From positions 1 through 58,109 of the IMG/VR virus record IMGVR_UViG_3300027983_000019: DNA of 58,109 nt; one strand, given 5' to 3'. Shown here one piece after another: positions 12,493-49,369 of this stretch (its first letter is position 1; every line of letters starts with the position of its first letter). The notes beneath the pieces are model-generated. The model saw nothing but the letters and a program-made list of their open reading frames with translations. It did no database searches and was not told the origin of the DNA. The translations under genes and the position numbers were made by a program. The stretch is from a virus.

Positions 12493-12894
12493 TGGACCTA
12501 GAGGGCTTCGAACCCCTCGTGTTGCCCAATATTCAATAAGTCTTCTACATGTTTATTCTATTTTTCTAAATAGACAAAATACAGAGTTCCCTTATTACTG
12601 TTCGGTTTACTCAGAACTAATCTTCAGTCATCTCTTTTTATGGTAGTGATTACACCTTGTTTCCGATTCTGTGTGACTTTACGTTTTACCCCTATCGGTT
12701 GTCAGGTTGTAAAGGTATTCAACATAGTCTAACTACGCTGTTACTGCTACACCATCAGTAACAAAGTTACCAACAGTTGCATCTGCTAAAATGTCTCCAT
12801 TTAAAATTGTGATACGATTAATTAACGTGACTATTATCATCTCACGACATGCTTACACTGTACATCTTATTGACAGTCAATTCCATTTAGGCCC
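12493..12894 (-). ncRNA. ssrA: tmRNA (trans-translation RNA)
   Basis: 402 bases. The 5' end GGGCCTA pairs with 3' TAGGTCC (one G-U) as the tRNA-like acceptor; the T-arm GAGGGGTTCGAAGCCCTC and discriminator A precede the 3' end, and AATGGAATTGAC matches the conserved 5' tmRNA segment. An open frame from GCA at 12786 to TAG at 12733 encodes a tag ADATVGNFVTDGVAVTA. It ends in a hydrophobic-small pattern (VAVTA) rather than the usual ALAA. The 3' CCA is not encoded. Works with SmpB and the host ribosome to rescue stalled translation. Confidence 0.9.
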
Positions 12895-12911
12895 ATAAAT
12901 CAAAGAACAAA

Positions 12912-12995
12912 TGGGAAAAATCAAGATTCGAACTTGCTTAGTGTGGTCCTCTCTAGTTGGGTCGTTCCACGAATTGGTTTCTCATACCTTTTCCC
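12912..12995 (-). tRNA. tRNA-like element upstream of tmRNA (anticodon not resolved)
   Basis: Acceptor arms GGGAAAA / TTTTCCC and T-arm CAAGTTCGAATCTTG are clear. The 45 bases between do not fold into convincing D and anticodon arms by eye and I found no loop with U33. May be a degenerate or unusual class II tRNA co-transcribed with tmRNA. Confidence 0.4.
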
Positions 12996-18791: not shown

Positions 18792-18869
18792 AATTTTTAT
18801 TTTTAATGATTAATATTGTTTTAGATTACAAACATAGGTATTTTTTTTCGTTAAAACAAGTAATACCCA

Positions 18870-21704: not shown

Positions 21705-22397
21705 ATGAAAAAACTTATAAAAAAAATATTAAAAGAATCTGATTTTGATTGGACTGAGGATATTATAGGTGTGTTCTCACCTGAAATGTTAAGATATGGG
21801 CAAACATTTAAGAATATGTGGAGTCAATATACAAGAATACTAAAATATGTTGGTAAAGATGATGAGGGTGTTAGTTACGAAACACCATTAACTCTTTTTA
21901 ATTTTGAAATTGTGTCGGATGAATCTGACCTTAATTTAGGTATAGAATTAGTACTTAACACCCACGATTTTATTAAATTTATTAAAGATGGTATATTGAC
22001 CCCAATGATTGATGAAGATGATTTTAAATTTTTGAATGAGTCTAATGATTTTGAATGGGTTGAGGATATCCCATCAGCTAGTGAGTATAGGTTTTTCATG
22101 ATTAGTCTTTGTATAGTTAATGATTACGATGAAGAAACACAAATCGATGAATGTCTTGAAGGTCGTGATATCTATGTTAAAATAAATAATTACGATGTTG
22201 ATGTTGATAGTATATGGAGATTCGGGATTGATGATATGGTTGCTTGTGGTGATGATGGTTATGACGTTATTGATTATTTAGAGACACATAACCTTGGTAT
22301 CCCACAATATGATGATTGTGAGGGTGTAACAGAAGTTAGTTTAAGTAGGTATTGTAAATATGGTCACGATACATTCTGTAATGGTGTGAACTGGTAA
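21705..22397 (+). CDS. Protein with two capsid-targeting-like segments (gene fusion)
   Basis: 230 residues. Starts MKKLIKKILKESDFDWTEDI; around residue 107 a second, weaker copy appears (DFKFLNESNDFEWVEDIPSAS), as if two family genes had fused. Nine bases after the previous gene. Both halves are acidic and unrecognised. Confidence 0.65.
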   Translation: MKKLIKKILKESDFDWTEDIIGVFSPEMLRYGQTFKNMWSQYTRILKYVGKDDEGVSYETPLTLFNFEIVSDESDLNLGIELVLNTHDFIKFIKDGILTPMIDEDDFKFLNESNDFEWVEDIPSASEYRFFMISLCIVNDYDEETQIDECLEGRDIYVKINNYDVDVDSIWRFGIDDMVACGDDGYDVIDYLETHNLGIPQYDDCEGVTEVSLSRYCKYGHDTFCNGVNW

Positions 22398-22400
22398 TAA

Positions 22401-22427
22401 TCACGGTGACTTATCACCGTGATATAT
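22401..22427 (+). terminator. Hairpin after the fusion gene
   Basis: ATCACGGTGACTTATCACCGTGAT; stable stem but weak T-run. Confidence 0.55.
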
Positions 22428-22435
22428 ACACATTT

Positions 22436-22510
22436 GTCTCCCCCACGGGCCTCGAACCCGTAACCTTTCCGTTAAAAGCGGAAAGCCCGTCCACTTGAGC
22501 TTCGAAGAGA
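22436..22510 (-). tRNA. tRNA-Lys(TTT)
   Basis: 75 bases; acceptor TCTCTTC/GGGGAGA, anticodon arm TTTCCG-CTTTTAA-CGGAAA, T-arm ACGGGTTCGAGGCCCGT. Last tRNA of operon T1, separated from the rest by its own terminator. Confidence 0.9.
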
Positions 22511-22512
22511 TA

Positions 22513-22621
22513 AAAAAAGGGACTAAGTTATGATTGACTTAGTCCCTTTTAGGTGTGGTTGTAATTTTGTTACCTCCAATTAGTCAATCGATTTTCACGA
22601 CTAACCAATTATCGGTTAGTC
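22513..22621 (-). promoter_or_regulatory. Candidate Lys attenuator before tRNA-Lys
   Basis: Between a Lys-rich ORF (22625-22834) and tRNA-Lys lie four mutually exclusive segments on the minus strand: GACTAACC, GGTTAGTC, then GGGACTAAGT and ACTTAGTCCC followed by T7. Segments 1+2 and 3+4 form hairpins (3+4 is a terminator); 2 can instead pair with GACTAA in 3. This is the layout of a classical attenuator. Confidence 0.6.
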
Positions 22622-22624
22622 TTG

Positions 22625-22834
22625 TTACTGTTTATATTTTAATTTATTTACCATAATTTCTACTTTGTTTTTTCTTTTAATCCTTTTAATCTTTAAAGCT
22701 CTTTTATACTTCTCGTTGAACTCTTTACGGAATTCACTTTTAATAACTTCTTTTTCTGAGTTACTTATTTTTCGTCTTAGTTTTAGTTCTTTTAGTAAAT
22801 ACCTCGTACTAAGACCTAATACTATTGTTAACAT
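22625..22834 (-). CDS. Lys-rich small protein, possible leader for tRNA-Lys
   Basis: 69 residues with 16 Lys (for example RALKIKRIKRKNK). Hydrophobic start (LTIVLGLSTRYLLKEL), then a basic helix. Its position directly before the attenuator-like hairpins and tRNA-Lys suggests a sensing role like the four shorter leaders; it may also be an ordinary basic protein. Confidence 0.55.
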   Translation of the reverse strand: MLTIVLGLSTRYLLKELKLRRKISNSEKEVIKSEFRKEFNEKYKRALKIKRIKRKNKVEIMVNKLKYKQ

Positions 22835-22857
22835 TTTGTTTTACTCTTTTAATTAGA

Positions 22858-22929
22858 AGTCAGGGAGGGAATCGAACCCCCGTAAATCGGGTTGCAACCG
22901 ACCACCTATATGCCTCTCAGACACCTGAC
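22858..22929 (-). tRNA. tRNA-Cys(GCA)
   Basis: 72 bases; acceptor GTCAGG/CCTGAC with U73 (normal for Cys), anticodon arm GTCGG-TTGCAAC-CCGAT, T-arm GGGGGTTCGATTCCCTC. Confidence 0.88.
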
Positions 22930-22936
22930 CAAATAA

Positions 22937-23010
22937 AAAGATAGAGATTAACTATATGAGTGTTTTTCCAAATCCAAATTGATGTAACTCACATTACCGC
23001 TTCTATCTTT
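22937..23010 (-). ncRNA. Y RNA-like small RNA inside the tRNA operon
   Basis: 74 bases between tRNA-Ala and tRNA-Cys. Outer helix AAAGATAGA/TCTATCTTT, then GAAGCGGTAATGTGAGTTAC, with inner helix ATGTGAG/CTCATAT. The same GAAGCGGT and GAGTTACATC segments recur in the RNA just upstream of the Ro60 gene (44223-44300). They resemble the animal Y RNA Ro60-binding strand (GGUAGUGAGUUAUC). Likely released by processing of the flanking tRNAs. Confidence 0.65.
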
Positions 23011-23014
23011 TTTG

Positions 23015-23089
23015 TGGAAGTGATGGGACTCGAACCCACATAACCTTCTCGTTGCAAACGAGTTGCTCAGCCAATTGAGCTACACCCCC
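23015..23089 (-). tRNA. tRNA-Ala(TGC)
   Basis: 75 bases; acceptor GGGGGTG/CACTTCC, anticodon arm ACTCG-TTTGCAA-CGAGA, T-arm GTGGGTTCGAGTCCCAT. Confidence 0.92.
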
Positions 23090-23143
23090 TTAGTGGCGTA
23101 CCTTTGATTTAAGAGAGGGCACTACCGTTTCAACTCTCTATAG

Positions 23144-23214
23144 AGCGAAATGTGAGAATCTAACTCCTTCCTCTCCTTGGAAGGGAGATGCTTTAACATT
23201 AAGCTACATTTCGC
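23144..23214 (-). tRNA. tRNA-Gly(TCC)
   Basis: 71 bases; acceptor GCGAAAT/ATTTCGC, anticodon arm TCTCC-CTTCCAA-GGAGA; T-loop slightly unusual (TTAGATT). Confidence 0.9.
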
Positions 23215-23258
23215 GTTTACCATTTTTTTTCTGACCTGAATGATATAAACAGGTTTCG

Positions 23259-23331
23259 CGGAGATGATGGGAGTCGAACCCACTCCGACCTCGCAGACAA
23301 CGAGACATCTTAACCGTTTGACCTCATCTCC
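23259..23331 (-). tRNA. tRNA-Asp(GTC)
   Basis: 73 bases; acceptor GGAGATG/CATCTCC, G73, anticodon loop TTGTCTG, T-arm GTGGGTTCGACTCCCAT. Confidence 0.92.
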
Positions 23332-23389
23332 ATTGCGTCTTAGTTGGTGGTACCACCATGTAGAACCTAAAACAATTTTAACCTACTTT

Positions 23390-23503
23390 TTATTTTCTAC
23401 CTTTTGTCCACCCTTTGTAATCCAACAGGTTCCGAATTGGGAGTTTAATTCCCCCTTTCCCTTGACCTTTCATTGTGTTACTCATCTTTTGTTTCCTTCC
23501 CAT
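23390..23503 (-). CDS. Small basic protein inside tRNA operon
   Basis: 37 residues (starts MGRKQKMSNTMKG), strongly basic, between tRNA-Pro and tRNA-Asp. The ATG follows ATTATTTATATGT, the recurrent TATTTATA-type box, so it may be expressed separately from the tRNAs. Unrecognised. Confidence 0.5.
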   Translation of the reverse strand: MGRKQKMSNTMKGQGKGGIKLPIRNLLDYKGWTKGRK

Positions 23504-23540
23504 ACATATAAATAATATGGGAAGGTACAAAAGTTCCATG

Positions 23541-23613
23541 TCTAAGTGATAGGATTCGAACCTACGACCTGAGTGTCCCAAACACCCCGCTCTACCAACT
23601 GAGCCACACCTAG
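23541..23613 (-). tRNA. tRNA-Pro(TGG)
   Basis: 73 bases; acceptor CTAGGTG/CACTTAG, anticodon arm GGGTG-TTTGGGA-CACTC. Confidence 0.92.
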
Positions 23614-23662
23614 TTTTTGTACTTCCTTCTCTCATACGGAGTATAGTACTAACTAATACAGG

Positions 23663-23743
23663 TGGTGCCTGATGGACTCGAACCACTCCCCTAAGGACGA
23701 AATTTACAGTTTCGCTGTCGTATCCAAACGACTTTCAGTCACC
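23663..23743 (-). tRNA. tRNA-Tyr(GTA)
   Basis: 81 bases with the long variable arm of bacterial tRNA-Tyr; acceptor GGTGACT/AGGCACC, anticodon arm CGAAA-CTGTAAA-TTTCG. First tRNA of operon T1. Confidence 0.88.
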
Positions 23744-23756
23744 AATTGTTTTTAAC

Positions 23757-23980
23757 TAAAAAACCCTCGACTTGTTATGGTCGAGGGTTTTAGTTTTAAA
23801 TTAATATCTTTTAATATTTAACTTAATACCTAAGGTCTCGACAATTGTGGTTATAACCACAATCAGTTCCCGCTTTCGCGTCACTCGGTTTATATGTCGG
23901 TTTATTAGTTATCATTGTTTTTGTTTTTTCTTTGTTTATAAATATAGTACAAATGTAGTAAAAGTTATCTTGTAAGTCAA
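23757..23980 (-). promoter_or_regulatory. Attenuator T1: promoter, leader ORF, terminator before Tyr-Pro-Asp-Gly-Ala-Cys-Lys tRNAs
   Basis: Minus strand: TTGAC (23980-23976), 18 bases, TACATTTG (23957-23950); leader ORF 23915-23823; terminator arms AACCCTCGAC (23789-23780) and GTCGAGGGTT (23771-23762) with T6. A second GTCGAG at 23842-23837, inside the leader's last codons, can pair with the terminator's CTCGAC and block it. A perfect hairpin TTGTGGTTATAACCACAA also lies in the leader. Confidence 0.75.
23823..23915 (-). CDS. Leader peptide T1 (30 residues)
   Basis: Begins MITNKPTYKPSDAKAG. Of 30 residues, 17 are Lys (3), Pro (2), Tyr (3), Asp (3), Ala (2), Gly (2) or Cys (2): exactly the seven amino acids of the operon's tRNAs. 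Codons such as AAA, TAT, GAC/GAT, GGA and TGT are those the encoded tRNAs read. Inferred to sense their charging through ribosome stalling. Confidence 0.7.
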   Translation of the reverse strand: MITNKPTYKPSDAKAGTDCGYNHNCRDLRY

Positions 23981-26756: not shown

Positions 26757-26846
26757 CGGAAGACAAGGGGATTGAACCCTCACTACCCATTAAGGGTAGA
26801 CTTGTTTAGCAGACAAGCTCAACGAACCAATATTTGACTATCTTCC
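26757..26846 (-). tRNA. tRNA-Ser(GCT)
   Basis: 90 bases, class II; acceptor GGAAGAT/GTCTTCC, G73, anticodon arm CTTGT-CTGCTAA-ACAAG. Its 5' end overlaps the stop region of the adjacent homing-endonuclease gene. Confidence 0.88.
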
Positions 26847-27755
26847 ATTAGTGTGTAGATTATTTATGTACTTAATAATTTTATTAGTTTCTTCTATTAT
26901 AAATTTTTTATGACTTGTTAAATCTTTAACTATATATAATTTTATACCTAATATCTCACATTCTTTTATTTTCTGTTTATCTTTTTCTTTTGTTTTAATT
27001 AAAGAACCATCACCTCTAATGTCTTTGTAGTGGTATATACCATTCCACTCAATACCAAAATTCAATGAGGGTATATAAACATCTAATTCACGATTACCCA
27101 TTAGTGTTAACCTATCATTAAATAAAATAGTTAAATTAGGGAAATAAGTGTTTAGTTCATTTTCTAAATATATTTCAGGTTTAGACCTAAGACCATTTAT
27201 TAATTTATTATTTATTTTATTTCTACACACACCACCACAATATTTTCTTCTATTTAATTGTGTTTTAGTTAACCATAATTTTTTATCACAAACCGGACAA
27301 GTAAACTCAACCTTTGGTTTTGTTAATTTTTCACTTATTTTTCGTTTTATTTCGTTACACTTTTTATCATCAAATCTATCACACAGTTTAACACCTTTTA
27401 AATTGACACTAACTGAGTTTCTTATATTAATTAACCCTTGCTTTGATAGTGTGTACACACTCAATACTCTATCTCTATTAGTTGACGAAGCCGAACAACT
27501 GTGTCCACAATATTTATTACCCCTCACTTCGTATGGTATTACCTCAGAACAATATTCACACATTTTTGGTTCAATGTAATACTTTTCCTTATTCTTTCGA
27601 AGTGTTGTTGTTGTATGTTCACGACCTAATCTCACCATTTTCTCATACGATTTACCTTTATTTGGGTTTTTATCACAATTGACTACATGTGACCCAGCGT
27701 GTTTAGGCGTTTTAATTTCCACCTCACCACAGAATTTACATTCATATTTACACAT
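26838..27755 (-). CDS. Homing endonuclease, Vsr/EDxHD-like
   Basis: 305 residues. Four zinc-finger-like CxxC segments (CKFCGE, CEYCSE, CPVCDKK and CGGVC) precede a C-terminal nuclease: SKPEIYLENEL, NRELDVYIPSLNFGIEWNG and YHYKD then KIKECEILGIKLYIV. This is the order of Vsr-like (EDxHD) homing endonucleases such as I-Bth0305I. It splits operon T2 between tRNA-Ile(GAT) and tRNA-Ser(GCT); own upstream box GCATATTTATATA. Confidence 0.75.
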   Translation of the reverse strand: MCKYECKFCGEVEIKTPKHAGSHVVNCDKNPNKGKSYEKMVRLGREHTTTTLRKNKEKYYIEPKMCEYCSEVIPYEVRGNKYCGHSCSASSTNRDRVLSVYTLSKQGLINIRNSVSVNLKGVKLCDRFDDKKCNEIKRKISEKLTKPKVEFTCPVCDKKLWLTKTQLNRRKYCGGVCRNKINNKLINGLRSKPEIYLENELNTYFPNLTILFNDRLTLMGNRELDVYIPSLNFGIEWNGIYHYKDIRGDGSLIKTKEKDKQKIKECEILGIKLYIVKDLTSHKKFIIEETNKIIKYINNLHTNGR

Positions 27756-28504: not shown

Positions 28505-28711
28505 GTAAAAAAAAATCCCCACCTCGGTTTGAGATGGGGATTAAGTAGTTATTTTATTAACTATTAATTACACACATCTCGTCATCTTCGTTATCCACGA
28601 ATTACGACTGATATTAATATTATGTATGTTATTATTAGTTTTCATTTTCTTTTGTTTTTTCCTTGTTTATAAATATACTACAAATATAGTAAAAGTTTAC
28701 CGTTGTGTCAA
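28505..28711 (-). promoter_or_regulatory. Attenuator T2: promoter, leader ORF, terminator before His-Ser-Asn-Ile-Arg tRNAs
   Basis: Minus strand: TTGAC (28711-28707), 18 bases, TATATTTG (28688-28681); leader ORF 28645-28568; terminator ATCCCCATCTC / GAGGTGGGGAT with T9. GAGATG at 28580-28575 (in the leader) can pair with CATCTC of the terminator arm. An upstream hairpin TTCGT-GGATA-ACGAA can sequester that region. Confidence 0.75.
28568..28645 (-). CDS. Leader peptide T2 (25 residues)
   Basis: Begins MKTNNNIHNINISRNSW. Asn 6, Ile 4, Ser 2, Arg 2, His 1: 15 of 25 residues match the operon's tRNAs (His, Ser, Asn, Ile, Arg). Codons include AAT/AAC, ATA plus ATT/ATC (both Ile tRNAs), AGT and TCG (two of the three Ser tRNAs), CGT (Arg ACG) and CAT. 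Confidence 0.7.
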   Translation of the reverse strand: MKTNNNIHNINISRNSWITKMTRCV

Positions 28712-30301: not shown

Positions 30302-30417
30302 TACGGGTGGATGGACTCGAACCACCAAAAACTACTTTTCGGATTACTCTTACTTTTCGTCCACCTCGTCATGGGTTACCCCAAACAAGGCGTGTTTACC
30401 AATTTCACCACACCCGC
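30302..30417 (-). tRNA. Oversized tRNA-Leu-like (116 bases)
   Basis: Acceptor GCGGGTG/CACCCGT, D-arm TGGTGAAATTGGTAAACACG, stem CCTTG/CGAGG enclosing a 17-base loop that itself folds as TGGG-GTAA-CCCA. A long variable region (CGAAAAGTAAGAGTAATC…) is shared with the next two Leu genes. Confidence 0.65.
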
Positions 30418-30439: not shown

Positions 30440-30545
30440 TACGGAAGAAGGGACTCGAACCCCTAAAAACTACTTTTCAGATTACTCTTACTTTTTCGTT
30501 CACTACCCTAAAGAATAGCGTGTTTACCAATTTCACCACTTCCGT
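30440..30545 (-). tRNA. Oversized tRNA-Leu, probably TAG (106 bases)
   Basis: Acceptor ACGGAAG/CTTCCGT, Leu D-arm, anticodon arm CTATT-CTTTAG-GGTAG, variable region of about 38 bases (GAACGAAAAAGTAAGAGTAA…) before T-arm AGGGGTTCGAGTCCCTT. Confidence 0.7.
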
Positions 30546-30661: not shown

Positions 30662-30767
30662 TACATGAGGATGGAATCGAACCATCAAGAACTACTTTTC
30701 AGATTACTCTTACTTTTTCGTTCACTACCCTAAAGAATAGCGTGTTTACCAATTTCACCACTCATGT
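30662..30767 (-). tRNA. Oversized tRNA-Leu, probably TAG (106 bases)
   Basis: Different acceptor (ACATGAG/CTCATGT) but the same D-arm, anticodon arm and expanded variable region as 30440-30545. First tRNA after the promoter at 30801. Confidence 0.7.
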
Positions 30768-30849: not shown

Positions 30850-30938
30850 TTATTTTATTTTAAAAAGGTTATCCAACCATTGTAACACTTAATCCTCGTT
30901 GTTGGTACAACTATATGTATAATATATTAAGTAGACAA
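30850..30938 (-). ncRNA. Candidate short RNA downstream of rnpA
   Basis: TTG (30938-30936), 20 bases, TATAGTTG, then an RNA of about 55 bases (CAACAACGAGGATTAAGTG…) ending in GGTTGGATAACC plus T5. Shares the CAACGAGG.TTAAG start with the RNA at 24045. Confidence 0.4.
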
Positions 30939-31214
30939 GTACTTTTTAAAATTTAATTTATTTGGTATTTTATCACCGATATAAATTAACGCCACTGAGT
31001 TAGTTGGAACAATCCCTTTTAGTTCCTCTCTCATCATCCTCTTTATTCTGTTTCTATCAACCGCTCTCTTAAACTTCTTAGAACTAACGGTAAATAAGTA
31101 ACCAGGTGTACCATCTGTAACAATTTTAATTAATACATTGTCCACCACTTTGTTTTTAGCTTCCACACTGAATAACCTATCAATATCTTTATTCTGTTTT
31201 AAACTATACTTCAT
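30927..31214 (-). CDS. rnpA: RNase P protein component
   Basis: 95 residues, slightly short for RnpA (about 110-120). KFKRAVDRNRIKRMMREELK is the signature RNR helix; upstream YLFTVSSKKFKR matches the central beta strand and the N-terminus SLKQNKDIDRLF matches the family start. Binds RNase P RNA (19792-20058) and tRNA precursors. A phage carrying both subunits is remarkable. Confidence 0.88.
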   Translation of the reverse strand: MKYSLKQNKDIDRLFSVEAKNKVVDNVLIKIVTDGTPGYLFTVSSKKFKRAVDRNRIKRMMREELKGIVPTNSVALIYIGDKIPNKLNFKKYLST

Positions 31215-32039: not shown

Positions 32040-32228
32040 TTATTGTTTGTCAAGCCGTTTCCTGACATCTTCGTTTAATTTATCATTACCTTTAATAATG
32101 TGTCTTGGCTCAAACGGACAATGTCGACACCCGTTGGAACAACATTGACCCTTATAAGCCAAGAACTTTTCTGTGAGTATAATACACCCATCTTCTTTGT
32201 AAAAATTTTCTTCGTTAGACATAAACAT
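32040..32228 (-). CDS. DUF5522-like Cys-rich protein
   Basis: 62 residues: FYKEDGCIILTEKFLAYKGQ then CCSNGCRHCPFEPRH. The CC.NGC.HCP motif is the DUF5522 hallmark. Overlaps the stop of the HNH gene upstream. Confidence 0.75.
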   Translation of the reverse strand: MFMSNEENFYKEDGCIILTEKFLAYKGQCCSNGCRHCPFEPRHIIKGNDKLNEDVRKRLDKQ

Positions 32229-32778
32229 ATGATTTCCAATCCTCGTGGATATTTTTATATTGTGATAAGAACTCCATATAAGTTGGTCTATACGGTTCGT
32301 GTCTTATTGTTTTACCTGTTAGTAATTCATATTCCTTCAGTGACATATTACCCTTTTCAAGGTTACAAGTACCACAACAGGTTGCTAAATTTTCCCACGA
32401 GTTTTTACCACCTTTTGATTTTGGTTTAACGTGGTCAATCGTTAAGTTTTTTTCAGATGAACAATATACACACTTGTACTCATCTCTTCTGTAAATATTA
32501 AATCTTGATAATGTTACTTTTTTATGTGGTACATATACATAATTGTTTAATCTAACAATTGTTGGTCTTTTAAAACCTTTACCATCATCCGTTAATAACG
32601 TTGGACATTCACCGATTAAATTTAAATAATCCTCGTCTCTAATAGAAACCTTAATAGGGCTATCTTCTTCATACGATACAACATCAGCTTTCCCTTTGTA
32701 AGCGAGCCTAAACCCTCTATCAAAGTTCATCACAGTCATTGGTGACGCATCCATATTTAATACTAATATTTTGTTCAT
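32215..32778 (-). CDS. HNH endonuclease
   Basis: 187 residues. CVYCSSEKNLTIDHVKPKSK followed by GGKNSWENLATCCGTCNLEK is a complete HNH/zinc core; N-terminal VLNMDASPMTVMNFDRGFRL is typical of a widely distributed HNH group. Upstream box GACTATTTATAATT. Confidence 0.85.
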   Translation of the reverse strand: MNKILVLNMDASPMTVMNFDRGFRLAYKGKADVVSYEEDSPIKVSIRDEDYLNLIGECPTLLTDDGKGFKRPTIVRLNNYVYVPHKKVTLSRFNIYRRDEYKCVYCSSEKNLTIDHVKPKSKGGKNSWENLATCCGTCNLEKGNMSLKEYELLTGKTIRHEPYRPTYMEFLSQYKNIHEDWKSYVYV

Positions 32779-33212: not shown

Positions 33213-33287
33213 TGAGGGTAGAGGGAGTCGAACCCCCGGCCTATTGTTTGTAAGACAACCACTCTAAACCAACTGAGCTATACCCCC
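33213..33287 (-). tRNA. tRNA-Val(TAC)
   Basis: 75 bases; acceptor GGGGGTA/TACCCTC, anticodon arm TTGT-CTTACAA-ACAA. Its 5' end overlaps the last codons of the HNH gene at 33278. Confidence 0.9.
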
Positions 33288-34078
33288 TTATATTCGTAAT
33301 GTTTTTTCCATTTTCTAATCGAGTTATCACTAACACCATACTTTTTACCTGTACCAACATAACCTAATGTTTCTATCTCTTCAAGTAGTTGGTTATATGT
33401 TGGTCTAACAACCTTTCGTTTAGATACTTCACTACAACCAACACACCTTAAACTTTTATTGTTTATTTTACAACCACAACTACAAAAATTTTCTTTTTTT
33501 AACCTTTTATTATTTTTACCTGAGAAAGTATCTAAAGTGGTGTCACAGTTGGGACAAACTATTCTAAGATTCTCAATTCTATTGTCGGTATTAATGCCGT
33601 TTATATGGTCTAATATTAAAGACATCTTTTTACCCATCCATTCATCGTTTTGACCACACAACTCACATATTCTCTCTTTAATCCCTTCCTTATATAATCT
33701 TTTTTTTAGTGTTGACGTACCGTATGTACTACCACTAACTAAAATTTCCTCTGTTGGTATTTTTAACCTTTTCCTCGTTATACCATTATTAAAATGTGAT
33801 ATATCTAAATTATATAAATTCATATAATTTTTAATTATTTTATATGATGCTCCAGTGATTGTAATACCCAAATCAATACATAGTTCCCTAATACTTCCAT
33901 AATCTTTAATTTTAGAACTTAACACTTTTTCGTTATATACTCTATGGTTATATTCAATAAAATTATCATTAGCGTATACATAAACTTCATTAACAGGTGT
34001 TTTTAACATACTAGCCACCATAAACGGACCACACTTACTATAGTTTTTTTTAATAATATTTTTTTCATGTTCTCTCAT
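33278..34078 (-). CDS. HNH homing endonuclease in tRNA operon T3
   Basis: 266 residues. ICELCGQNDEWMGKKMSLIL then DHINGINTDNRIENLRIVCP and NCDTTLDTFSGKN form the HNH core with zinc Cys; helix-turn-helix-like ends (IRELCIDLGITITGASYKI and the C-terminal YGVSDNSIRKWKKHYEY) suit DNA recognition. Separates tRNA-Thr(GGT) from tRNA-Val. Confidence 0.8.
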   Translation of the reverse strand: MREHEKNIIKKNYSKCGPFMVASMLKTPVNEVYVYANDNFIEYNHRVYNEKVLSSKIKDYGSIRELCIDLGITITGASYKIIKNYMNLYNLDISHFNNGITRKRLKIPTEEILVSGSTYGTSTLKKRLYKEGIKERICELCGQNDEWMGKKMSLILDHINGINTDNRIENLRIVCPNCDTTLDTFSGKNNKRLKKENFCSCGCKINNKSLRCVGCSEVSKRKVVRPTYNQLLEEIETLGYVGTGKKYGVSDNSIRKWKKHYEYKGV

Positions 34079-34571: not shown

Positions 34572-34801
34572 GAACAAAAAAAAACCCGAACTCAATAATT
34601 TGAATTCGGGTTTGTTTGATTGTATATCTTAAATTGTCATGAGACATTAGACACACCAAACCCGAATACAGTTTGTAACTGTACCATAAAGACTTGCGTC
34701 AGGGTAAATAAAGATATGTTTGTTAATGTTTTCATTTTGTTTTTAATTTTCTTTGTTTATAAATATACTACAAATATAGTAAAAGTTCTCTTATAAGTCA
34801 A
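34572..34801 (-). promoter_or_regulatory. Attenuator T3: promoter, leader ORF, terminator before Gln-Met-Thr-Phe-Thr-Val-Leu tRNAs
   Basis: Minus strand: TTGAC (34801-34797), 18 bases, TATATTTG (34778-34771); leader ORF 34735-34637; terminator arms AACCCGAA / TTCGGGTT with T9. ATTCGGGTTTG at 34667-34657, inside the leader, is complementary over 11 bases to CAAACCCGAAT of the terminator's first arm. Hairpin ACAGT-TACAA-ACTGT lies just upstream of it. Confidence 0.8.
34637..34735 (-). CDS. Leader peptide T3 (32 residues)
   Basis: Begins MKTLTNISLFTLTQVFMVQL. After the initiator Met, 22 of 31 residues are Thr 5, Val 5, Leu 4, Phe 4, Gln 3 or Met 1: the amino acids of the tRNAs in the operon. 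Thr codons cover ACA/ACG and ACC/ACT (both Thr tRNAs); Leu codons cover TTA and CTG (both Leu tRNAs). Confidence 0.75.
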   Translation of the reverse strand: MKTLTNISLFTLTQVFMVQLQTVFGFGVSNVS

Positions 34802-42467: not shown

Positions 42468-44105
42468 TTACTGAGTTACCTCAACGACAGAGACGTTAGT
42501 TTCCACTTCATCCCATGCGTCTATTAGTACCTTAGCGAACTGACTTTCTTTCCCAGTCCACCCTGACAATATAGCTCCTCTATATAAATTTTCAGGAACA
42601 ACCGAGTTATTATATCCAGCTGTTTGTATCGTAAACATATTAACCTTCGGGTTAACATCTTTCCTATACCTCTCAACTAATTTAAGAACATCGATGTAGT
42701 TCCCATAACTAGTACCACCATAAATATAGTCTTTATAGTCACTTCGGTTTATCCCAAACAACGAACCGTGTCCAGCTTGTTGGTCTGAGTATATAAAGAT
42801 ATTGTCGTAGTGAACTTTGTTTTCGATTGCCTCCTTGAAGAACAACCAAATACCATTTTCAGTTCTTGGACCTTGTTTTTTACCTCGTTCTTTGGTTTCT
42901 TTCATTTGAGATAAGATACCATTTCTTTTCGAAACAGGTTTTAAATCTAGTTTATCACCGAAAACGCCAACCTCACCTTCATCAGATTGTATCGCGGTAA
43001 TTATACTAGACAAGTTACCTATATCAGCAACAGTAACAGTACCATATTCAGAATTAAAAGAACCCCAAGCCGAACCAGAGTTATCAGATAAACAAACTGT
43101 TTTACCCTTTAATTTAGGTAAATTTTTCACCGAAATATCAAGACACTCTTCAAGTGCATCTTTCAATAGACCTTCGTGATTAACACCTTCAATAGCTTTG
43201 AACGCTGAGTAATATCTAAAAGGGAATTGTTTACCGTAAAGTACACCGCCTTTTAATTTTTCACACACATCTTTAGTGAATAGTAGGTCATTAACCTCTG
43301 TGAAGATACCTCTAAGATTTATTAGTAAAGCCATATGAGGTATTTTGATTGTATCAAAAATCTCTTTCCATGTTTTACCTTCGGACCTTAAACTTTCCCA
43401 TGTTCGTGAACTTTCTTCCACAGTGACATTACCCGTAGTCATCATCTCTGTAATGACATCTGATTTAGCGTGAGAAATTCTCACTAAATCTATAAGTCCT
43501 TTGGATTTATACTTATTCATTCTGTAAGCGTCGAACTCACCTAACGCGTCAGCCCAAACCCTTTTTACGATTGACGGTAAACCCTTTTTGGTCACATTTA
43601 ACCACATGTAGTAGTCAAACTGATTTGTGATGTCATCAGGTCTGATAATAAGTTCAGAACCAATTTTTCTCATAACACCAGGGTTTTCTTTGTTAAATTC
43701 AACCCTTCCTTCGTGTCTTGCTGCTCTAATAAATATTACAGCTGGGTTCATCCTCATGAAATACTCGTGTCTTAAAGTACGAGCTAATTCCAAAGTCCCC
43801 ATAAAGTTTTCAGTTAATGCCTCATCAATACACTTAGTAAAAACATCTGTTGTTGTTTCAACTTCATCGTCAGAATATAACCCAAGTACGTCATTCTTCA
43901 TAATAGTCTGAATATTGGTTGGTTTATCGTGTGATGCTTTGTAGTAAGATGGTTCACCGAATATTGAACTCCCAGCTACAATCCTTAACGTGTCTAATGG
44001 TTTTAAGGTATAAGATGTACCTCCCATAAAATTTGTTACGGACGTTCCTTCGTGTGTTCTAATACTCGACACTGTTTTCTTAGAAGATTTTGAAAATTTA
44101 CTCAT
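42468..44105 (-). CDS. rsr: Ro60 (TROVE/vWA) RNA-binding protein
   Basis: 545 residues, full Ro60 length. HEAT-like TROVE part includes FIRAARHEGRVEF, RVWADALGEFDAYRM, LLINLRGIF and PFRYYSAFKAIE. The vWA-type domain has KTVCLSDNSGSAW (MIDAS-like D-x-S-x-S: D-N-S-G-S) and IFIYSDQQAGHGSLF. Ro60 rings hold misfolded RNAs and Y RNA in RNA quality control. A Y-like RNA locus with its own promoter and terminator lies immediately upstream. Confidence 0.88.
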   Translation of the reverse strand: MSKFSKSSKKTVSSIRTHEGTSVTNFMGGTSYTLKPLDTLRIVAGSSIFGEPSYYKASHDKPTNIQTIMKNDVLGLYSDDEVETTTDVFTKCIDEALTENFMGTLELARTLRHEYFMRMNPAVIFIRAARHEGRVEFNKENPGVMRKIGSELIIRPDDITNQFDYYMWLNVTKKGLPSIVKRVWADALGEFDAYRMNKYKSKGLIDLVRISHAKSDVITEMMTTGNVTVEESSRTWESLRSEGKTWKEIFDTIKIPHMALLINLRGIFTEVNDLLFTKDVCEKLKGGVLYGKQFPFRYYSAFKAIEGVNHEGLLKDALEECLDISVKNLPKLKGKTVCLSDNSGSAWGSFNSEYGTVTVADIGNLSSIITAIQSDEGEVGVFGDKLDLKPVSKRNGILSQMKETKERGKKQGPRTENGIWLFFKEAIENKVHYDNIFIYSDQQAGHGSLFGINRSDYKDYIYGGTSYGNYIDVLKLVERYRKDVNPKVNMFTIQTAGYNNSVVPENLYRGAILSGWTGKESQFAKVLIDAWDEVETNVSVVEVTQ

Positions 44106-49188: not shown

Positions 49189-49369
49189 ACAAAAAAAATC
49201 CGATTATTTCTAATCGGATTTTTTAAAGTTTATATAATACAATATTACTTCATATCCGATGTGAATAAGTCTCTCTTTCTTCTCTTCTCTCTATGTTAGT
49301 AATTATTGTCATTGTTTCTTGTTTTTTATAAGTATACTACAAATATAGTAAAAGTATTCTAATTGTCAA
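49189..49369 (-). promoter_or_regulatory. Attenuator T4: promoter, leader ORF, terminator before Glu-Arg tRNAs
   Basis: Minus strand: TTGAC (49369-49365), 17 bases, TATATTTG (49347-49340); leader ORF 49312-49250; terminator AAATCCGATTA…TAATCGGATTTTTTTT. A copy of ATCGGAT at 49260-49254, in the last leader codons, can pair with the terminator's ATCCGAT. TTCA/TGAA arms flank that copy. Confidence 0.8.
49250..49312 (-). CDS. Leader peptide T4 (20 residues)
   Basis: MTIITNIERREERETYSHRI: four Glu and four Arg, seven of them in a run ERREERE, and the operon downstream holds only tRNA-Glu and tRNA-Arg(TCT). Three Arg codons are AGA, exactly the codon read by the encoded tRNA-Arg. Confidence 0.8.
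   Translation of the reverse strand: MTIITNIERREERETYSHRI

Follow-up and report, generated by a model that had tools for sequence, protein, structure and literature searches.

How large phages dose their many tRNA genes, and why they carry them, is an open question, and the tRNA operon T1 poses it for a single gene: why tRNA-Lys stands apart from the other tRNAs of its operon. The window analyzed here is an entire IMG/VR virus record (58 kb; 58,109 nucleotides). On the minus strand, T1 consists of a promoter, a leader ORF, a terminator, six tRNA genes, a 69-codon ORF, a linker of 74 nt, a second terminator and finally tRNA-Lys (Table 1). A first-pass annotation had described leader-peptide attenuators in front of four tRNA operons (T1 to T4) and a fifth, Lys-specific attenuator embedded in T1. 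The 69-residue ORF with 16 Lys residues on which the latter proposal was built is indeed present between tRNA-Lys and the other T1 tRNAs.

Table 1. Features of operon T1 and leader ORFs of the other tRNA operons in the window.
Feature	Position	Strand	Remarks
Operon T1 promoter (TTGAC...TACATTTG)	23950-23980	-	Bacteroidota-type by motif; motif also found before relatives' leaders
T1 leader ORF MITNKPTYKPSDAKAGTDCGYNHNCRDLRY	23823-23915	-	Encodes every amino acid carried by the T1 tRNAs; Lys has 3 codons
T1 leader terminator	23760-23791	-	From hairpin search
tRNA-Tyr, Pro, Asp, Gly, Ala, Cys of operon T1	22856-23743	-	
tRNA-Cys	22930-22856	-	
Candidate leader ORF	22625-22834	-	69 codons, 16 Lys (final ones are codons 64, 66 and 68)
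Segment A (GACTAACC)	22614-22621	-	Covered, in the model, when the ribosome is at the stop codon
Segment B (AATTGGTTAGTCG)	22598-22610 (core 22606-22599)	-	Partner is A or C
Segment C (CGATTGACTAATT)	22578-22590 (core 22589-22582)	-	Partner is B or D
Segment D (AAAAGGGACTAAGTCAATC)	22532-22550	-	5' arm and loop of Lys terminator
Segment E	22512-22528	-	3' arm of Lys terminator and T7 run
tRNA-Lys (ttt)	22436-22509	-	Gene behind the terminator
Hairpin 3' of tRNA-Lys	22400-22423	-	Putative operon end; no T run
T2 leader ORF (Gln Thr Phe Val Leu operon)	34637-34735	-	T1-leader class
T3 leader ORF (His Ser Asn Ile Arg operon)	28568-28645	-	T1-leader class
T4 leader ORF (Glu Arg operon)	49250-49312	-	T1-leader class

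The leaders at the start of the operons form a class that extends beyond this phage. Viral contigs were scanned with the promoter motif that T1 to T4 have in common, and every new contig found in this way carries a tRNA operon made up of promoter, short ORF, terminator and tRNAs. Besides T1 to T4, the class includes leaders in L021, L025, L026, L028, L029, L031, L032 and L036, and contigs carrying it reach 318 kb. Near-identical leaders are found in records G001 and G002, while G003 is a diverged relative with about 26-60% protein identity (stronger matches) and a different gene order. The promoter motif had no match in genome contigs. A search of viral contigs with the T1-leader DNA pattern gave at least 119 stretches, none of which, among the matches listed, precedes tRNAs, and these were attributed to chance.

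Leader composition follows the tRNAs encoded behind each leader. In 14 distinct leaders, a mean of 65% of residues match the tRNAs of the same operon compared with 35% ± 5% after random reassignment of leaders to operons (0 of 20,000 permutations as high, p < 5e-5); it should be noted that related leaders such as L029a and L036 are not independent and that the tRNA sets are imperfect, some tRNAs having been missed by ARAGORN and read by eye. All amino acids of the operon, as read, are present in 13 of the 14 leaders. Pro may serve as an illustration, with tRNA-Pro and a leader Pro both found in the window and in L029 and both absent from the T1 operon of G003 as read. The architecture is similarly constant. 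In 15 leaders, 20-31 nt separate the stop codon from the terminator, and the best partner of the terminator 5' arm lies within the ORF in every case, its end 3-32 nt short of the stop codon (single z-scores from -1.2 to -5.4). In a model of ribosome position, the 5' arm is sequestered until the A site has moved about 55-85% through the ORF and is then freed in nearly all leaders, L032 and L029b showing only partial predicted release at the stop. Of all codons ahead of the modelled switch, 79% are cognate, compared with 40% beyond it (14 leaders; Fisher p 1e-15, relatedness ignored), and the operon amino acids all precede the switch point with the exception of one Ala. This concentration of cognate codons before the switch fits what a stalling sensor needs. 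The relatives' leaders thus strongly back the proposed attenuators T1 to T4, and control of phage tRNA operons by leader-peptide attenuation, as read from these sequence patterns, is well supported. This wider class is a stronger and more interesting result than the Lys element itself.

Within T1, the stem in front of tRNA-Lys comprises 14 bp (22550-22537 / 22528-22515, -18.8 kcal/mol) and is followed by a T7 run at 22518-22512, three bases before the tRNA gene. Among 18 phage tRNA operon stretches examined, no other internal terminator is as strong, with one far weaker hairpin found in G003. It is likely that a genuine terminator gates tRNA-Lys. A different role for the hairpin, either as a stop for the convergent plus strand genes ending at 22397 or as a processing site, would make the T run incidental. 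Plus strand genes do converge on tRNA-Lys and the same stem ends in TTTT on that strand; however, the T7 run lies on the minus strand, in the direction of the tRNA, the plus strand tail reads just TTTTAGG, and the structure of the linker would be left unexplained. We consider such a role improbable.

The four segments proposed to form alternative hairpins, the last being the T7 terminator, were recovered with their pairings. Due to repetition of GACTAA/TTAGTC in the linker, the pairings A:B (-11.7 kcal/mol), B:C (-9.5), C:D (-9.9) and D:E (-20.2) compete with each other, B:C taking a 13-bp form (22610-22598 with 22590-22578). The 112-nt segment folds at -38.7 compared with -16.6 ± 3.1 for shuffles (z -7.2), a figure dominated by the terminator. 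When the terminator is removed, the 74-nt linker still folds beyond chance (-19.4 versus -9.2 ± 2.6 for shuffled sequences, p ~0.001), and linker and terminator have 6 hexamers in common versus 1.0 expected by chance (p 0.0095). The best predicted antiterminator of the element ends 44 nt past the stop codon and pairs with the terminator loop and three stem bases, so that C:D leaves the rest of the stem uncovered (p 0.056 for the best antiterminator duplex). At equilibrium, D:E is favoured in all ribosome states.

Ribosome position was modelled by masking the RNA as far as the ribosome's leading edge and scoring sequestration of the terminator 5' arm. Predicted sequestration of D is unchanged for all A-site positions from codon 3 to 68 and falls from 11 nt to 3-5 nt as the A site moves from Lys68 to codon 69/stop, where the arm is released because A is covered by the ribosome, leaving B to pair with C. 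A difference this large was obtained in 0.7% of shuffled linkers (p 0.0067), which, like the other p-values for this element, should be regarded as exploratory since masks and segments were chosen after the sequence was seen. The modelled flip is unaffected by temperature (15-37 °C) or by footprint size between +13 and +16; a footprint of +17 shifts it one codon earlier, so that it takes place when the A site holds Lys68.

Based on this model, a polymerase that gets beyond the T1 leader would transcribe tRNA-Tyr to tRNA-Cys, followed by the 69-codon ORF. If this ORF were untranslated, or a ribosome held at or before codon 68, A:B would form and leave C free for D; C:D would then occupy the 5' arm and loop of the terminator on their emergence, and the polymerase would continue into tRNA-Lys. 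If the ORF were completed, the ribosome at the stop codon would cover A, B would pair with C and D would be free, so that D:E could form and transcription would halt three bases short of tRNA-Lys. Scarcity of charged tRNA-Lys would in this way lead to more read-through, as Lys is the commonest codon of the ORF and codons 64, 66 and 68 all encode it, adding a second, Lys-biased step to the multi-amino-acid T1 leader. We put the chance that a conditional terminator gates tRNA-Lys through ribosome position with a bias towards Lys slightly below even. Regarding its parts, control of the terminator by the position of a ribosome on the ORF, as suggested by the model, has about an even chance, and a Lys-biased response somewhat less. 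Some weaknesses are clear: the switch is seen in a single sequence and in none of the relatives, so that covariation is lacking; C:D, with three stem bases covered, may block the terminator incompletely; and a ribosome would have to be at the stop codon with the polymerase 80-100 nt ahead.

The main competitor of such a switch is an ordinary intrinsic terminator under no regulation, whose leaky read-through would keep tRNA-Lys at a low ratio, with the ORF encoding a common small basic phage protein. Dominance of the terminator fold at equilibrium in every ribosome state fits this simpler account, as do the codon score of the ORF, which resembles that of other genes, and the Lys-rich small ORFs conserved in relatives' tRNA operons irrespective of the position of tRNA-Lys. 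It does not account for linker structure and shared hexamers above chance or for a modelled switch that coincides exactly with the ORF's end, and a strong constitutive block ahead of tRNA-Lys would be odd given that the operon leader already encodes Lys. We regard a plain terminator as unlikely, though still a serious contender.

Lys accounts for 23% of the residues of the 69-codon ORF (16 of 69) compared with a phage average of 9%. With 52% A in the strand, 18% AAR codons would be expected from base composition. Among 122 short ORFs of the clade, 4 are at least as Lys-rich, the 69-residue ORF itself included. A small conserved Lys-rich family (M..VLTGKLES..EI) is found in relatives' tRNA operons (L025:2056-2175, L031:9261-9434, L032:235-354 and L021:6587-6721). 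Since these operons keep small Lys-rich ORFs away from tRNA-Lys, the Lys content of the ORF is a doubtful signal. A profile search did not match the 69-residue ORF to this basic family, and no homologue was found in IMG/VR (back-translated patterns), 16 relative records, Pfam, PHROGs or a phage collection. Inspection by eye for a second, shorter leader ORF beside the Lys terminator gave just a 12-codon TTG-start frame without Lys.

The modelled switch is itself indifferent to which codon causes the delay: a stall at any codon, or absent translation, leaves the terminator arm sequestered, and three Lys codons already precede the switch point of the T1 leader. The element could act as a general sensor of translation, with tRNA-Lys opened by any slowing of ribosomes in the ORF, be it through shortage of any amino acid or of ribosomes themselves. 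Constant sequestration of D from codon 3 to 68, merely 24% of which are Lys, would be expected from such a sensor. Lys is nevertheless the commonest codon and occupies positions 64, 66 and 68, and the codons of the phage's other leaders correspond to the tRNAs that each of them precedes. A general sensor appears rather unlikely, less so than a role in stopping convergent genes, and Lys specificity is no more than plausible. Of the private, Lys-specific step originally envisaged, the unique internal terminator and the predicted flip directly after the last Lys codon thus stand, while the Lys bias is weakened by a pre-switch Lys share that mostly reflects A-richness.

Relatives place tRNA-Lys differently. 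In L029 it lies 12 nt behind tRNA-Cys and in G003 it precedes all other tRNAs of its operon; in both it is served by the common leader alone, with no private step, which makes the element look lineage-specific. No second sequence of the element was found in relatives, none of which conserves it, and searches for the locus elsewhere by way of its neighbouring proteins returned no relatives. A private tRNA-Lys promoter was also sought, but the minus strand from the T1 promoter (23980) to position 18859 has no match to TTG-N16-24-TAnnTTTG. The Lys element may possibly be a derived second tier within the leader class. In the resulting two-tier scheme, which we put forward tentatively as having perhaps one chance in three, the leader would sense shortage of any tRNA under its control, and a Lys-biased, ribosome-sensing terminator inside the operon would then set tRNA-Lys apart.

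Several further features were observed around the tRNA operons. A palindrome is repeated around TATTTATATGTATGGGAAG in tRNA spacers (window ~23520-23490 and ~26737-26710, minus strand), and a possibly tRNA-like spacer (AGAAGCGGT..GTTACATC..GGAT) at ~23010-22940 (minus strand), which gave no tRNA call, is similar to L029 ~12838-12945. Unusually long tRNA-like genes of 106-116 nt with a common insert are located at 30302-30417, 30440-30545 and 30662-30767 (minus strand) and at L021:14591-14700, and G003 has a similar gene. A phage-encoded RNase P protein lies among the tRNA operons (30927-31214, minus strand; Pfam PF00825, E 2.7e-10), and HNH or homing endonuclease genes are found in or beside them (26838-27755, 32215-32778 and 33278-34078, minus strand). 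The protein encoded at 42468-44105 (minus strand) has a weak match to the TROVE (Ro RNA-binding) domain (E 3.4e-5).

To our knowledge, leader-peptide attenuation of phage tRNA operons has not been reported. No mention of leader control of such operons was found in the open-access papers searched, including the large-phage papers PMC9723584 and PMC7162821. If the leaders act as proposed, the phage would gauge shortages of individual charged tRNAs in the course of infection and produce only the tRNAs concerned; if the Lys step is real as well, dosing could be set for single tRNAs. The Lys element offers a compact test case, its ORF and pairings being separately alterable.

Like the leaders of its clade, the Lys element has an ORF on the 5' side, a terminator just ahead of a tRNA gene and, in the model, ribosome-dependent sequestration of the terminator 5' arm. 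Clade leaders share a promoter motif, ORFs of 20-36 codons and an antiterminator inside the ORF, all of which the Lys element lacks; its gap between stop codon and terminator is 74 nt rather than 20-31 nt, and cognate codons make up 24% of its pre-switch codons compared with 54-94%. The proposed fifth attenuator stands in having a unique terminator and a linker that behaves as a switch in the model; it is no fifth copy of the leaders, with 69 rather than 20-36 residues, a longer gap, an antiterminator outside the ORF and no promoter. T-box riboswitches also couple tRNA charging to termination, the sensor proposed here being a ribosome on an ORF; an Rfam search of the window returned only the tRNA family at gathering score. 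The closest parallel is with leader-peptide attenuators of the trp, his, thr, ilv and pheST type. The his leader forms several alternating stems, as is predicted for the Lys element. In these systems, as predicted here, the position of a ribosome on an ORF picks between mutually exclusive hairpins, and an intrinsic terminator lies directly 5' of the controlled gene. The Lys element differs in having a 69-codon ORF with only about a quarter Lys codons and no promoter of its own, and in controlling a tRNA, in a phage and from inside an operon.
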